A stretch of 33,299 nucleotides of DNA, from the NCBI GenBank assembly GCA_016209385.1, contig JACQWB010000125.1:1-33299 (forward strand). The letters run 5' to 3'. The position numbers and the translations under genes were made by a program. The notes under the pieces are model-generated. The model was given only the letters and a program-made list of their open reading frames with translations, ran no database searches and was not told the origin of the DNA. This DNA is from Candidatus Rokuibacteriota bacterium (GTDB taxonomy: Bacteria; Methylomirabilota; Methylomirabilia; Rokubacteriales; CSP1-6). Shown here one piece after another: positions 10,058-16,424 of the stretch (its first letter is position 1; every line of letters begins with the position of its first letter).

Positions 10058-10075
10058 TATAATCGGGTGAACCCG
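10058..10075 (+). promoter_or_regulatory. glc operon -10 box with adjacent palindrome
   Basis: A perfect TATAAT (10058-10063) is followed directly by the perfect inverted repeat CGGGT-GA-ACCCG (10064-10075), which would cover the transcription start. No strong -35 is seen (GAC-containing match near 10034-10039). The palindrome could be an operator; GntR-type regulators commonly control glycolate genes, but the regulator is not in the window. Confidence 0.5.
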
Positions 10076-10093
10076 CTCTGGAAGGAGGCAGGC

Positions 10094-11566
10094 ATGGCCA
10101 CCCTGACCGAGTCCAGGAAGAAAGCCCTCCGTCGCGAGCTGGAAGGGATCGTCGGCAAAGCTGCGGTGCTGTCAGACCCCGACGAGCTGCTCGTCTACGA
10201 GTCCGACGGCCTCACCCTCTTCCGCGCGTTGGCCGACTTCGTCGTGTTCCCGACGTCGGCCGAGCAGGTCTCGGCCATCGTCAAGCTCGCTGACCGGGAG
10301 GGGATTCCCTTCGTCGCGCGGGGCGCCGGCACGGGGCTCTCGGGCGGGTGCCTGCCGAGCGAGGGCGGTCTGGTCATCTCGCTGATGCGGATGAACCGGG
10401 TCCTCGAGGTCGACTACGACAACCAGGTGGCCGTGGTGGAGCCGGGGCTGGTGAACCTCCACCTCTCCTGGGCGGTGGGCCCGCGCGGCTACTACTACGC
10501 GCCGGATCCCTCGAGCCAGCAGGCGTGCACGCTCGGCGGCAACATCGCGAACAACTCCGGCGGTCCCCACACGCTCAAGTACGGCGTCACCACGAACCAC
10601 GTCCTGGGGCTCGAGGTGGTGCTGCCGGACGGCGAGCTTGTCTGGCTCGGCGGCAAGACGCGCGACCCGCAGGGGTACGACCTGGTGGGCCTCTTCGTCG
10701 GCTCCGAAGGCACCTTCGGGATCGCGACGAAGATCGTGGTCCGGATCCTCAAGAAGCCCCAGGCGGTGAAGACGGTCCTCGCCATCTTCGACGAGATCGA
10801 CCGGGCCTCGGAGGCGGTCTCGGCGATCATCGCCCGCGGCCTCGTGCCGGCGGCGCTGGAGATGATCGACCAGGTGACGATCCAGGCCGTCGAGGACGCC
10901 TTCGGCTGCGGCTATCCGCGGGACGCCGCCGCGGCCCTCCTCATCGAGCTCGACGGCCTCGCCGTCGGGATGGAGGCGCAGGTGGAGCGCGTCATCGCCG
11001 CGTGCCGTGAGTGCGGGGCGCGGGAGGTGCGGCTCGCGAAGGACGAGGCCGAACGTCAGCTCCTCTGGAAGGGACGGAAGTCCGCCTTCGGCGCCTACGG
11101 CCGTATCTCGCCCGCCTACATGGTCATGGACGGCGTCATCCCGCGGACGCGGCTCCCGTATGTCCTCCGGCGTGTGAATGAGATCGTGGCGACCCACAAC
11201 CTCCGCGTCGGCAACGTGTTCCACGCCGGCGACGGCAACCTCCACCCCAACATCCTCTACGATCCGCGACGGCCGGGGGAGGAGGAGCGCGTGGTGCAGG
11301 CCGGCGCCGAGATCCTGAAGGTCTGCGCGGAGGTCGGCGGATCCATCTCGGGCGAGCACGGGATCGGCCTCGAGAAGATGGACTACATGCCGTTCATCTT
11401 CTCGCCGGCGGACCTGACCACGATGCACCGGGTGAAGGAAGCCTTCAACCCCCGCGGGCTCTGCAACCCGGGGAAGATCTTTCCGACGCGCAAGTCGTGC
11501 GTGGAGGTCGGGCCCGCCTACCGGCCCCACGCCATCGAAGAGAAAGGGCTCGCCCAGCGTTTCTGA
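10094..11566 (+). CDS. glcD: Glycolate/D-lactate oxidase subunit GlcD (FAD-linked)
   Basis: A 490-aa FAD_binding_4 oxidase. The PP-loop region has PFVARGAGTGLSGGCLP, and LGGNIANNSGGPHTLKYGVT contacts the FAD pyrophosphate. The C-terminal domain has NVFHAGDGNLHPN and GGSISGEHGIG, conserved in GlcD and D-2-hydroxyacid dehydrogenases, where histidines line the active site. It oxidises 2-hydroxyacids such as glycolate or D-lactate and passes electrons through GlcF. ATG 10094 follows AAGGAGG. It is first in a four-gene operon: glcE starts 36 nt later, then glcF and a Rieske protein. The substrate could be another 2-hydroxyacid. Confidence 0.93.
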   Translation: MATLTESRKKALRRELEGIVGKAAVLSDPDELLVYESDGLTLFRALADFVVFPTSAEQVSAIVKLADREGIPFVARGAGTGLSGGCLPSEGGLVISLMRMNRVLEVDYDNQVAVVEPGLVNLHLSWAVGPRGYYYAPDPSSQQACTLGGNIANNSGGPHTLKYGVTTNHVLGLEVVLPDGELVWLGGKTRDPQGYDLVGLFVGSEGTFGIATKIVVRILKKPQAVKTVLAIFDEIDRASEAVSAIIARGLVPAALEMIDQVTIQAVEDAFGCGYPRDAAAALLIELDGLAVGMEAQVERVIAACRECGAREVRLAKDEAERQLLWKGRKSAFGAYGRISPAYMVMDGVIPRTRLPYVLRRVNEIVATHNLRVGNVFHAGDGNLHPNILYDPRRPGEEERVVQAGAEILKVCAEVGGSISGEHGIGLEKMDYMPFIFSPADLTTMHRVKEAFNPRGLCNPGKIFPTRKSCVEVGPAYRPHAIEEKGLAQRF

Positions 11567-11602
11567 TGGCTGTGACGGCGAGCCCCGAGCCATCCGATCA
11601 GC

Positions 11603-12937
11603 GTGAACCCTGAGCTGCTCGAGAAAATCCGAGGCCTCGTCGGCCCTGAGCACTTCCTGACCGGCGTCGAGCTGTCGCCGTATGTCCTCGAAGGCCGGAC
11701 GCCCGACGCGGCGGTCTTCCCGGGCTCGATCGAGGAGATCAGCGCCATCCTCGCGCTCGCCTCCGAGGCCGAGGTCCCCGTGACGCCCTGGGGCGGCGGC
11801 ACGAAGATGGCCATCGGCTCGCCCCCGACGCGGGTCGGGCTGGTGCTCGGTCTCAAGCGCCTCGGGCGCCTGATCGAGCACGAGCCCGGCGACCTCACCG
11901 CCACGGTACAGGCCGGCATGTCCCTGGGCGCGTTCCAGGCCGAGGTCGGGCGGCGGGGGCAGTGGCTCTCGCTGGACCCCGGGTTCGCCGAGCAGGCAAC
12001 GCTCGGCGGGATCCTGGCCACCAATGCCTCGGGGCCGCGCCGCCACCTCTACGGCACCGCTCGCGACCTCCTCATCGGCGTGACCGTGGTCGCGGCCGAC
12101 GGCTCCGTCGTCAGGGGCGGCGGGAAGGTTGTGAAGAACGTGGCGGGCTACGACCTCCCCAAGCTCTACATCGGGTCGTTTGGAACCCTCGGAGTCATCG
12201 TAGAGGCGACCTTCAAGCTCAGGCCGCTCCCGGATGTGGACCGCTGCTTCCTGGCGCGCTTCGGCGGGCTCAAGGAGTGCGGGCTGGCGCTCAAGGAGCT
12301 TCTCACCTCCGACCTGATCCCCTCGGCGGTGGAGCTGCTGGACTCCGAGGCCGCCCGCGGCGCGGGGCTGGTCGCGGGGACGGACGGCGGCGGGACGCTG
12401 CTGGTGGGGTTCGACGGGCTCGAGGCGCAGGTGGGCTGGCAGTGCGAGGAGGCGCGCCGGCTCTTCGAGGCGGTGGGCCTCGTCGAGCACCGCGTCCTGG
12501 ACGGGGCCGCGCGCGACCAGGCCTGGCGCGCGGCGAGCGAGCTGCCGCGGCGGGTCGTGGCCGAGGCCGCGGCCCAGATGAAGCTCGCGGTGCTGCCCGC
12601 GCACGTGACCGACGTCATCGAGCAGGCTGGTGGGGTCGCCCAGCGGCACAGCCTCGGGGCCGCTTTCGTCGCCCACGCCGGGATCGGGATCGCGCGGGGC
12701 GTCCTGACGGGGGGGCGGGACAGCGCAAGAGCGGTGGCGGACGTGCTCGGAGAATGGCGCGAGATCGCGAAGGCGGCCGGCGGCTCCGCTCTCGTCGAGT
12801 GGGCGCCCCTGGCGGTGAAAGAGGCGGCGGCCGTGTGGGACCCCCCGGGGCCCGCGTTCAGGATCATGCAGCGGATCAAGGCGCAGCTCGACCCGCGGGG
12901 CATTCTCAACCCGGGCCGCTTCGTCGGCGGCATCTGA
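11603..12937 (+). CDS. glcE: Glycolate oxidase subunit GlcE-like (FAD-linked)
   Basis: A 444-aa FAD-binding protein and partner of GlcD. FAD-binding elements are TPWGGGTKMAIGSPP and ATLGGILATNASGPRRHLYG, then GGKVVKNVAGYDLPKLYIGSFGTLG, a GlcE hallmark. At 444 aa it is longer than typical GlcE (about 350 aa), with a fuller C-terminal FAD-oxidase domain that ends in LDPRGILNPGRF, as in GlcD. It may therefore be a second catalytic subunit and not just a structural one. The start is GTG 11603, the first codon giving the conserved N-terminus; 9 nt separate its stop from glcF. Confidence 0.88.
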   Translation: MNPELLEKIRGLVGPEHFLTGVELSPYVLEGRTPDAAVFPGSIEEISAILALASEAEVPVTPWGGGTKMAIGSPPTRVGLVLGLKRLGRLIEHEPGDLTATVQAGMSLGAFQAEVGRRGQWLSLDPGFAEQATLGGILATNASGPRRHLYGTARDLLIGVTVVAADGSVVRGGGKVVKNVAGYDLPKLYIGSFGTLGVIVEATFKLRPLPDVDRCFLARFGGLKECGLALKELLTSDLIPSAVELLDSEAARGAGLVAGTDGGGTLLVGFDGLEAQVGWQCEEARRLFEAVGLVEHRVLDGAARDQAWRAASELPRRVVAEAAAQMKLAVLPAHVTDVIEQAGGVAQRHSLGAAFVAHAGIGIARGVLTGGRDSARAVADVLGEWREIAKAAGGSALVEWAPLAVKEAAAVWDPPGPAFRIMQRIKAQLDPRGILNPGRFVGGI

Positions 12938-12946
12938 GGACGCCCC

Positions 12947-14281
12947 ATGGCCCACGGAGTCGCGACCGAACCCGTCCAGCTCGGCGCCGCCGGGTCGCTC
13001 CAGCTCCACGGGCTCGACGTGGACGGCGTCAACAAGTGCGTTCACTGCGGGCTCTGCCTCGCGTACTGTCCGACCTTCGCCGAGCTCGGCACCGAGATGG
13101 ACTCGCCCCGGGGCCGGATCTTCCTGGTCAAGTCACTGGCCGAGGGGCGGATCGCGCTCACCGAGTCGGTGGTGAGCCACCTCTCGCTCTGCCTCGACTG
13201 CCGCGCCTGCGAGACCGTGTGCCCCGCGGGGGTCCCGTACGGCCAGCTCATCGAGGCCGCCAAGGCCGAGATCGAGCGTCAGCGGCCGGGGGGTCCGTTG
13301 CGGCGCCTCTTCCGCTGGGTCAACTTTGCCCTGCTCCTCCCCCGTCCCGGAATGCTCGGCCTCGCGGCCTCGCTCCTTCGCCTCTATCAGCGGAGCGGGC
13401 TCCAGGCCCTGGCGCGCGCGAGCGGGCTGGTCCGGCTGCTCCCGGGGACGCTCTCGGCGTGGGAGGCCCTGCTTCCCGAAGTCCCGCCGGCCTCCGAGCG
13501 GCCGCCGCTGCCCGAGCTTGTTCCCGGCGAGGGCGTGCGCCGGGCGCGGGTGGCGCTCCTGACCGGGTGCGTTCAGCAGGTGATCTTCGGCCCTCACAAC
13601 CGGGCCACGGCGCGGATCCTGGCTCTCAACGGGGCGGAGGTCGTGGTGCCGCGCGGCCAGGGCTGCTGCGGAGCGCTTCACGCCCACGCGGGGGATCACG
13701 CCCGGGCCCAGGAGCTGGCGCGGCGGGCGATCGAAGCCTTCGAGGCGACGGGCGTGGACGCCGTGGTGGTCAACAGCTCGGGCTGCGGCGCTCACATGAA
13801 GGGCTACTGGCACCTCTTGAAGGACGATGCGGTCTACGCCGGGCGGGCGCGGGCGCTTTCCTCAAAGGTCCGGGACATCGCCGAGTTCCTGGCCGAGGAG
13901 CCGCTCCGCGGGCCGCTCGCCTCCGTGCCGCTCACCGTGACCTACCACGACCCGTGCCATGTGGTCCACGGGCAGAAGATCCGGAGCCAGCCGCGGAAGC
14001 TTCTCGCCCAGCTCCCGGGGCTGAAGCTCGTCGAGCTGACGGAGGCCGACTGGTGCTGCGGGTCGGCCGGGATCTACAACCTCACCCAGCCCGAGATGGC
14101 GACGCGGCTTCAGGCGCGGAAGGTGGGAAACCTCCTCGCGACGGGTGCCGAGGCCGTGGTGACGGCGAACCCCGGGTGCATCATTCAGATCGTCCAGGGG
14201 CTCCGCGCCAAGGGCTCGCCGATGCGCGTCCTTCACCTCGTGGAGCTCCTCGACCGGGCATACGGGCGCCCGGAGCGATGA
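12947..14281 (+). CDS. glcF: Glycolate oxidase iron-sulfur subunit GlcF
   Basis: A 444-aa iron-sulfur protein. Two 4Fe-4S motifs lie at the N-terminus: CVHCGLCLAYCP and CLDCRACETVCP. Two cysteine-rich CCG domains follow, seen as GQGCCGALHAHAGDH and YHDPCHVVHGQ with DWCCGSAGIYN, as in GlcF, LutA and heterodisulfide reductase subunit D. It takes electrons from the flavin subunits and passes them to the quinone pool or a ferredoxin-like acceptor. The last codons overlap the Rieske gene (ATGA, 14278-14281), so the Rieske protein may be its electron partner. Confidence 0.93.
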   Translation: MAHGVATEPVQLGAAGSLQLHGLDVDGVNKCVHCGLCLAYCPTFAELGTEMDSPRGRIFLVKSLAEGRIALTESVVSHLSLCLDCRACETVCPAGVPYGQLIEAAKAEIERQRPGGPLRRLFRWVNFALLLPRPGMLGLAASLLRLYQRSGLQALARASGLVRLLPGTLSAWEALLPEVPPASERPPLPELVPGEGVRRARVALLTGCVQQVIFGPHNRATARILALNGAEVVVPRGQGCCGALHAHAGDHARAQELARRAIEAFEATGVDAVVVNSSGCGAHMKGYWHLLKDDAVYAGRARALSSKVRDIAEFLAEEPLRGPLASVPLTVTYHDPCHVVHGQKIRSQPRKLLAQLPGLKLVELTEADWCCGSAGIYNLTQPEMATRLQARKVGNLLATGAEAVVTANPGCIIQIVQGLRAKGSPMRVLHLVELLDRAYGRPER

Positions 14282-14744: not shown

Positions 14745-14784
14745 CGGAGGGGGCCGCCGCGGCCCCCTCCGACCAAAGAGGAGG
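14745..14784 (+). promoter_or_regulatory. Leader hairpin plus Shine-Dalgarno, copy B
   Basis: Arm CGGAGGGGGCC (14745-14755), loop GCCGC, arm GGCCCCCTCCG (14761-14771), an 11-bp perfect stem, then ACCAAAG and AGGAGG (14779-14784) five nt before ATG 14790. The order of arm, loop, CCCCCTCCGA, purine spacer and GGAGGT matches copy A at 8112-8151 on the other strand. The second arm could instead pair with the ribosome site. Confidence 0.65.
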
Positions 14785-14789
14785 TCCCG

Positions 14790-16424
14790 ATGATCACGGT
14801 CCTGAACCCGATGGGGTTTCCGCCGAAGGTCGCGCACAGGGAGCTGGCGCCCCGCCTCGGCGCGCTCGACGGCAAGACCGTCTACCTGGTTGACTGCCGC
14901 TTCGACGATTCCGACGTCTTCCTCAAGCAGATGCAGGCGTGGTTCGCTGAGCACATGCCGGGCGTCCGCACGGTGTTGAAGCCGATCTCGAGCGTCTACC
15001 TCAAGGACGACCCGGCGACGTGGGAGGAGATCAGGGCCAGGGGGGACGCCGCGATCGTCGGCGTCGGCCACTGAAGCACCTGCGCGCCGGCGGTCGCCGC
15101 GCACGCGATGACGATCGAGGAGAAGTACGGCGTGCCCACTGTTGCCATCCACACCGACAAGTTCGACGGGGTCGTCCGCTCGGTAGCGACCGTGAACGGG
15201 ATGCCCGGGCTCCGGCAGGTCTTCGTGCCCCAACCCGTGATGGGCAAGTCGGCGCGGGAGCTGCGCGCCTACGTTGACGGCGCGGACCCGCTCACCGGCC
15301 GTCCCGTTATGCAGGAGGTTCTGGAGGGGCTCACGCGGCCGTTCGCCGACGAAGACCTGAAGCCGCGCGAGTTCGATCGCTCCATCCCGCGGCTCGTCGA
15401 GTCCGACACCGAGGAGGATCTCCACCGCCTCTTCCTCGACAACCGCTGGACGGACTGCCTGCCGATCGTGCTCCCGACGGAGGAGCGGGTGGCGGCGATG
15501 CTGGCCAGGACCCGCCGCAAGCCCGACGAGGTCGTGGGGCACATGCGACCGACCCACTTCCGCGAGGCCTGGGAGTACACGGTCGAGAAGGTCGCGGTCA
15601 ACGCGGTGATGGCGGGCGCGCGGCCGGAGTACTTCCCGGTGATCCTGGCGCTCGCGGCGACGGGCGTGAGCGCGCGCGGAAGCACGACCAGCTCCATGGC
15701 GGCCATGGCCGTCGTCAACGGGCCCATCCGCCACGAGATCGGGATGAACGCCGGGACCGGGGCCATGGGACCCTACAGCCACGCCAACGCCACGATCGGC
15801 CGGGCCTACGGCCTCCTCTCGCAGAACCTCCAGGGCGGCTCGGTGCCCGGGCTCACCTACCTGGGCTCGCAGGGGAACAACTACGCGTACAACAGCGTGA
15901 CGTTCGCCGAGAACGAGGAGCGGAGCCCCTGGGAGCCGTTCCACATCCAGCACGGCTTCGGGCCGGAAGACAGCGCCGTGAGCGTCTTCACCGGCTGCCG
16001 GTCCACCGCCTTCACCCTCGGCCTTCGCGAAAAGCACTGGCGCGAGCACGTCCGCAACATGCTCCGCGGGATGGACCCCCACATCCCGCCGGTGCTCCTG
16101 CTCGATCCCATCACCGCCCGGCAGTTCATCGACCGGGGCGGGTTCACGAAGAAGGACGCGCTGATCGACTGGCTCTACGACACCGCCCGGATGCCGGCCG
16201 GCGAATACTGGGACTACCAGCTCGTCCAGAACTATATCTACCCGCGCGCGACCTTCGGCGAGGAGCCGTGGGCCTCGAAGCTCAGGGCCGTCCCCGACGA
16301 GCTGATCCCGATGTTCCGGCGCGAGGACATCCACGTGGTGGTCGTGGGCGGAGAGACCAACGGCTACTGGCGCATCATGGGCGCGACGTACCAGAAGACG
16401 GTCTCGGTCGACGACTGGCGCTAG
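14790..16424 (+). CDS. UGSC-family-like selenoprotein, read through in-frame TGA (Sec95)
   Basis: One 544-aa product if TGA at 15072-15074 is read as selenocysteine. The two halves are in the same frame with no other stop, and the sequence across the junction is AIVGVGH-U-STCAPAVAAH, giving a U-x-x-C redox motif (U95, C98). Residues 1-120 resemble the UGSC (seleno)protein domain: a start with LNPMGFPPK, a Rossmann-like strand, and a glycine-rich strand just before U. The remaining 420 residues include NRWTDCLPIVLPTEERV, GSTTSSMAAMAVVNGP and a late VVVVGGETNGYW; their function is unknown to me. A SECIS-like hairpin follows the TGA. Without recoding, a 94-aa stub and an orphan ORF from ATG 15108 would result. 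Role inferred as thiol/selenol redox chemistry. Confidence 0.85.
15075..15102 (+). promoter_or_regulatory. SECIS-like hairpin after UGA of the UGSC-type gene
   Basis: Stem GCG/CGC (15084-15086 with 15100-15102), a bulged C15087, then CGGC/GCCG (15088-15091 with 15096-15099), around loop GGTC (15092-15095). The loop begins 17 nt after the UGA and has G at its first two positions, as bacterial SelB-binding hairpins require. The stem lies inside coding sequence, as is normal in bacteria. Confidence 0.7.

Follow-up and report, generated by a model that had tools for sequence, protein, structure and literature searches.

An in-frame UGA in a two-domain UGSC-type gene of a soil bacterium very probably encodes selenocysteine

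Introduction

In contig JACQWB010000125.1 of a Candidatus Rokuibacteriota bacterium (assembly GCA_016209385.1), whose 33,299 nucleotides are the window analysed here, a reading frame opens with the ATG at 14790, meets a TGA at 15072-15074 and runs on in the same frame to a TAG ending at 16424. Is this TGA a stop or a selenocysteine (Sec) codon, and what could the complete protein do? A first-pass annotation, made from the letters of the window, had postulated a hidden selenoprotein of the UGSC type. Considering that the codons of the homologues, the constraint on the SECIS hairpin and the Sec machinery of the genome all agree, we hold it nearly certain that 14790-16424 is a selenoprotein gene, and the in-frame UGA of this soil-bacterium gene very probably encodes Sec. 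The word hidden was an overstatement, since the UGSC family, its Sec and a UGSC/Unknown_1 fusion are already published (2008, PMC2398784).

Gene Structure and the Selenocysteine Codon

The whole gene (14790..16424, + strand) codes for 544 residues in two fused domains, and the 94-aa ORF ending at TGA 15074 and the ORF from 15108, which the first-pass annotation had joined, do form one continuous frame. A Shine-Dalgarno sequence AGGAGG (14779-14784) lies 5 nt ahead of the ATG, and no ribosome-binding site was found at the internal ATG 15108. The third-position GC is 0.96 upstream of the UGA and 0.95 downstream. ORF adjacency was rejected as evidence for Sec, given that the GC-rich window holds 8 comparable same-frame ORF pairs with long halves split by TGA. 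What raises the UGA reading above chance is the UGSC Pfam match that spans the UGA, a codon restricted to TGA or Cys in 40 fusions, and the frozen synonymous sites described below. As standard gene calling splits at UGA, a gene of this kind is easily missed in annotation.

The UGA is codon 95 (15072..15074, + strand), assigned by frame reading and comparison with homologues, and the motif across it reads U95-S-T-C98, as had been noticed at the junction of the two ORFs. Cys98 (15081..15083, +), present in all homologous fusions read, is the likely resolving Cys of this U-x-x-C motif. The N-terminal UGSC domain (14799..15278, +), predicted to be a Rossmann-like alpha/beta domain, was recognised when the first 165 residues were read through the UGA: they match Pfam PF24696 with 95.1 bits (cut-off 25), which bears out the family assignment of the first-pass annotation. 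Against the NCBIfam equivalog NF041046 the protein reached 67.2 bits, with a cut-off of 125, while a stand-alone UGSC paralogue of the same genome scored 143. Judged by these scores, the gene is a member of PF24696 in a divergent USTC subfamily outside NF041046. It shares with the UGSC family (PF24696/NF041046; PMC2398784) a match across the Sec codon, the U-x-x-C motif and the use of Sec with a Cys minority, and it differs in having USTC for UGSC, the lower equivalog score and a fused partner domain.

Fifty related loci were fetched, of which 40 (L020-L059) are homologous fusions and form the basis of the counts at codon 95, a comparison that the first-pass annotation had advised. In the alignment the codon is TGA in 35 of the 40 and TGC or TGT in the remaining 5; no other stop codon occurs at this position among them, and Cys98 is conserved throughout. 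The U-x-x-C with Sec/Cys exchange by which the UGSC family is defined is thus found here (35 TGA, 5 Cys). All five Cys forms are alphaproteobacterial. The TGA forms lie on contigs labelled Rokubacteria, Methylomirabilota, Chloroflexi, Binatia, Deltaproteobacteria, betaproteobacteria, Acidiferrales and Actinomycetes. USTC had been regarded as an unusual variant, and this proved exaggerated, as it is the norm in the fused subfamily.

Ahead of the start codon, in the gap that follows the upstream gene, there is also a perfect 11-bp inverted repeat (14746..14770, +; GGAGGGGGCCG CCG CGGCCCCCTCC), without a U run, which could possibly be a terminator or a leader hairpin.

SECIS Hairpin and Selenium Machinery

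A SECIS-type hairpin occupies 15081..15107 (+), with its apical core at 15088-15099 and a GGUC loop at 15092-15095; the loop begins exactly 17 nt past the UGA, just where it had been placed, and is closed by the stem CGGC/GCCG (15088-15091/15096-15099). In up to 325 pairwise comparisons per codon among 26 Sec fusions, not one synonymous difference was seen at codons 99-104, and the lowest 8-codon synonymous window of the gene begins at codon 98 (0.065 versus a mean of 0.392, sd 0.081). In the five Cys genes the same codons differ synonymously at 0.5-0.6. This freeze, confined to Sec genes and absent in Cys genes, points to selection on the RNA that is tied to Sec, and on this pattern of substitution the hairpin 3' of the UGA is a SECIS under selection in Sec genes only. 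Its folding energy is ordinary, not lower than that of shuffled sequences (z 0.38), and was discarded as evidence; covariation of the core stem was uninformative because near relatives show no variation in the core. The Rfam SECIS models gave no match to the hairpin at the gathering score or at E 10. The other UGSC genes of the genome and its PrdB-like genes also have hairpins shortly past their TGA.

The source genome (4.57 Mb, 95% complete) was searched for the sel genes, as the first-pass annotation had recommended, and the four of them were found above curated cut-offs: tRNA-Sec (selC, 72.7 bits), selB and selA on the same contig, and selD. The selD gene (L122, contig C175) has itself one in-frame TGA, so that the selenophosphate synthetase is probably a selenoprotein as well. 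Seven UGSC genes are present in the genome, each with one TGA (7/7). Across the phylum, UGSC genes occur in 72 of 95 genomes and tRNA-Sec above the cut-off in 79 of 95, with 2-12 UGSC copies per genome in the family of the source organism and exactly one TGA in every one of the about 150 UGSC matches listed. Selenium-rich Methylomirabilota are already known from a genome with 63 predicted selenoprotein genes (PMC13188914), and the loci most closely related to the window also point to this phylum as its origin. The notion that the Cys form goes with a lack of Sec machinery was only partly true: selA is absent in 2 of the 5 Cys genomes, and it is missing above the cut-off in 1 of the 12 Sec genomes tested.

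Partner Domain and Gene Neighbourhoods

The second half of the protein is a C-terminal partner domain (15378..16421, +) whose stand-alone homologues adjoin UGSC genes elsewhere. The first-pass annotation had described a 420-aa extension of unknown function; the lack of a named function stands, and the length comes down to about 350 aa, because the UGSC domain extends to about 15278. No Pfam or NCBIfam family matched these C-terminal 350 residues, a profile search of PDB sequences returned nothing real (best E 0.45), and Foldseek gave no match below E 0.001 with either the whole model or the C-terminal domain (AF2 pLDDT 88.6). Class-I fumarase and cyclic-amide-hydrolase were examined as fold relatives and rejected, being weak (TM about 0.2-0.26).

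The partner profile finds 9 genes in the genome: 7 are beside or fused to the 7 UGSC genes and 2 are cut by contig ends. With both profiles, every UGSC domain in the scanned loci was seen to be accompanied by a partner domain, either in one fused gene or as a same-strand neighbour; UGSC comes first in the fusions and the partner mostly first in adjacent pairs. Partner domains without UGSC were only those next to contig ends. The pairing is no selection effect, since it holds in all 10 loci (L079-L088) retrieved with UGSC alone as query. This Rosetta-stone pattern suggests that UGSC and its partner act as one enzyme. The partner has many invariant polar residues and conserved Glu and His residues, and no invariant Cys in the alignment of homologues. 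D222, N310, N333, R338, E374, E376 and H385 are among its conserved positions. A fusion UGSC/Unknown_1 was reported in the GOS selenoproteome by Zhang and Gladyshev (2008; PMC2398784, Figure S1A); Unknown_1 is probably this partner domain, the common feature being a UGSC domain joined to a conserved domain without assigned function. Some stand-alone partners (L062, L064, L066, L068) end in C-x-D-G-T-C, possibly a redox tail, a motif that the fused form of the window does not carry.

A TrxR-like flavoprotein is encoded by the next gene downstream, on the same strand and within 154 bp, in 7 homologue loci belonging to Chloroflexi, Binatia, betaproteobacteria and alphaproteobacteria. Two of these linked proteins scored 257 and 287 bits with TIGR01292, under its cut-off of 343. 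It is plausible that the linked flavoprotein is the electron donor. The source genome contains no close orthologue of it (best 34% identity). Stand-alone UGSC/partner pairs adjoin genes that, named by sequence reading, encode Liv-type ABC transporters, acyl-CoA dehydrogenase, LarA-like proteins and CoA transferase. In the window, two FAD-oxidase (GlcD-like) genes and one Fe-S (GlcF-like) gene stand in a row directly upstream (10067-14281). The window neighbours (GlcD/GlcF, nitronate monooxygenase, TPP enzyme) were dismissed as a functional clue, as they are not conserved beside the fusion in relatives.

Structural Model and Similarity to GrdB and PrdB

The model of the fusion (pLDDT 92.3, pTM 0.90) has a compact fold. 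Its UGSC half consists of alternating strands and helices in a Rossmann-like order, with Sec95 located between the strand 87-93 and the helix 98-113. The structural matches of this half were weak and corresponded to SIS, B12-binding and ribose-binding folds; no thioredoxin fold was among the 50 matches listed. The model argues for a Rossmann-like UGSC domain, and not for the thioredoxin-like fold that the 2008 paper proposed together with a redox role (PMC2398784).

The relationship with other Sec enzymes was analysed by profile comparison. GrdB and PrdB are the Sec subunits of glycine reductase and D-proline reductase, and their partners, GrdE and PrdA, are of the pyruvoyl type. The UGSC profile matched that of GrdB with Sec on Sec (46.6, versus a maximum of 22.3 in 60 column shuffles), and it still did so with Sec masked (38.1 versus a shuffled maximum of 20.6); the PrdB-like profile gave 34.0 versus 20.9. 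The similarity spans only about 45 residues around Sec, so that a distant homology of UGSC with GrdB at the Sec site is likely and falls short of proof. What is alike in GrdB/PrdB (PF07355, TIGR04483) is the local profile at Sec, U-x-x-C in register and then a helix and a G-[IV]-P strand. What is unlike is that there is no whole-domain match, no recognised GrdE/PrdA-like partner and no conserved pyruvoyl-precursor Cys. The PF07355 family model did not match the UGSC proteins; the window protein lies outside this family and, by analogy, may work like one of its members. Accounts of GrdB-type chemistry are given in PMC13188914 and PMC10838667, and the fluoroacetate reductase FarB/FarE (GrdB-like, PMC10838667) offers, as an analogy only, an example of how Sec could attack a polarised carbon when no pyruvoyl partner is present.

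Proposed Mechanism and Alternatives

From the fold, the local GrdB similarity, the linked TrxR-like gene and the catabolic settings, we favour a substrate-specific, Sec-dependent reductive cleavage like that of GrdB/PrdB. On strong comparative evidence, Sec95 is inserted by SelB and tRNA-Sec with the help of the hairpin that directly follows the UGA, and in the model it lies at the strand-to-helix turn of the UGSC domain, three residues ahead of Cys98. This domain would pack with the partner domain, the likely substrate-binding half. The selenolate, by analogy with GrdB/PrdB, would attack a small organic substrate at a polarised carbon, displacing an amine, a halide or a similar group, and the seleno adduct may be resolved via Cys98 and then reduced by a donor of the thioredoxin/thioredoxin-reductase type. 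Our confidence in this whole mechanism, in which a Sec enzyme of two domains would cleave a small organic substrate by reduction, is evenly divided. Counting against it are the short stretch of similarity and the missing PF07355 match, a partner with neither an invariant Cys nor a fold match, the unconserved GlcD/GlcF-like and TPP neighbours near the fusion, and the missing close TrxR orthologue in the genome; the lineage is also probably aerobic, unlike Stickland fermenters.

The UxxC spacing together with the linked TrxR-like gene would also suit a general thiol/disulfide or peroxide oxidoreductase, the role assumed for most Sec families and the one put forward with the thioredoxin-like fold in 2008, in which case the partner would only anchor it or dock client proteins. 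We judge it less likely, given that a Rossmann-like fold is modelled and the matches listed include no thioredoxin, that the partner is large, rich in invariant polar residues and never absent, and that 2-12 copies per genome in catabolic settings better suit substrate-specific enzymes. More improbable is that the Sec binds metals or organometals, as has been proposed for SaoL/MerB-like selenoproteins, and that the fusion is a detoxification lyase: a role in heavy-metal biochemistry has been suggested for some newly described selenoprotein families (PMC13188914) and the partner has its conserved Glu and His, but no mercury or arsenic genes were recognised among the neighbours read and the Sec site resembles that of GrdB. 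A true stop, with a 94-aa ORF and a separate gene from 15108, or a UGA due to a sequencing error or a pseudogene mutation, would follow the standard code and the chance ORF pairs of the window, but is practically untenable with the UGA kept in 35 homologues of several phyla, Cys as sole replacement, the SECIS constraint, no ribosome-binding site at 15108 and the full Sec machinery.

Returning to reductive cleavage as the preferred reading, what this analysis adds is the constant partner domain, fused or adjacent and in either order; a Sec site like that of GrdB/PrdB in a model that is not thioredoxin-like; the linked TrxR-like reductase; and the USTC subfamily, for which a Cys form exists as well. 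In the openly accessible papers searched we found no prior report of the constant partner, the GrdB-like site, the linked reductase or the USTC subfamily. With a constant partner, a GrdB-like active site and a linked reductase, UGSC is no longer just a motif and becomes an enzyme system open to experiment. Somewhat more tentatively than the mechanism itself, we suggest that UGSC and its obligatory partner could be another, widely distributed class of enzymes for Sec-dependent reductive cleavage, with a GrdB/PrdB-related Sec site and a substrate subunit of a new type, at work in soil and freshwater bacteria that are probably aerobic, the genomes of this Rokubacteria-related family having 2-12 substrate-specific copies.

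The source genome has two more genes that are likely to code for selenoproteins, both PrdB-like (L077:1393-2223 on contig C310 and L078:1093-2157 on contig C8), with the motifs VALVIPV-U-PVC and AIFIPV-U-PIC and 145-154 bits against TIGR04483, under the cut-off of 300. Other genomes of the phylum have full-length GrdB homologues (L090, L096, L099-L102) with an in-frame TGA in UGTC motifs, and the homologue in L102 carries U-G-S-C itself.
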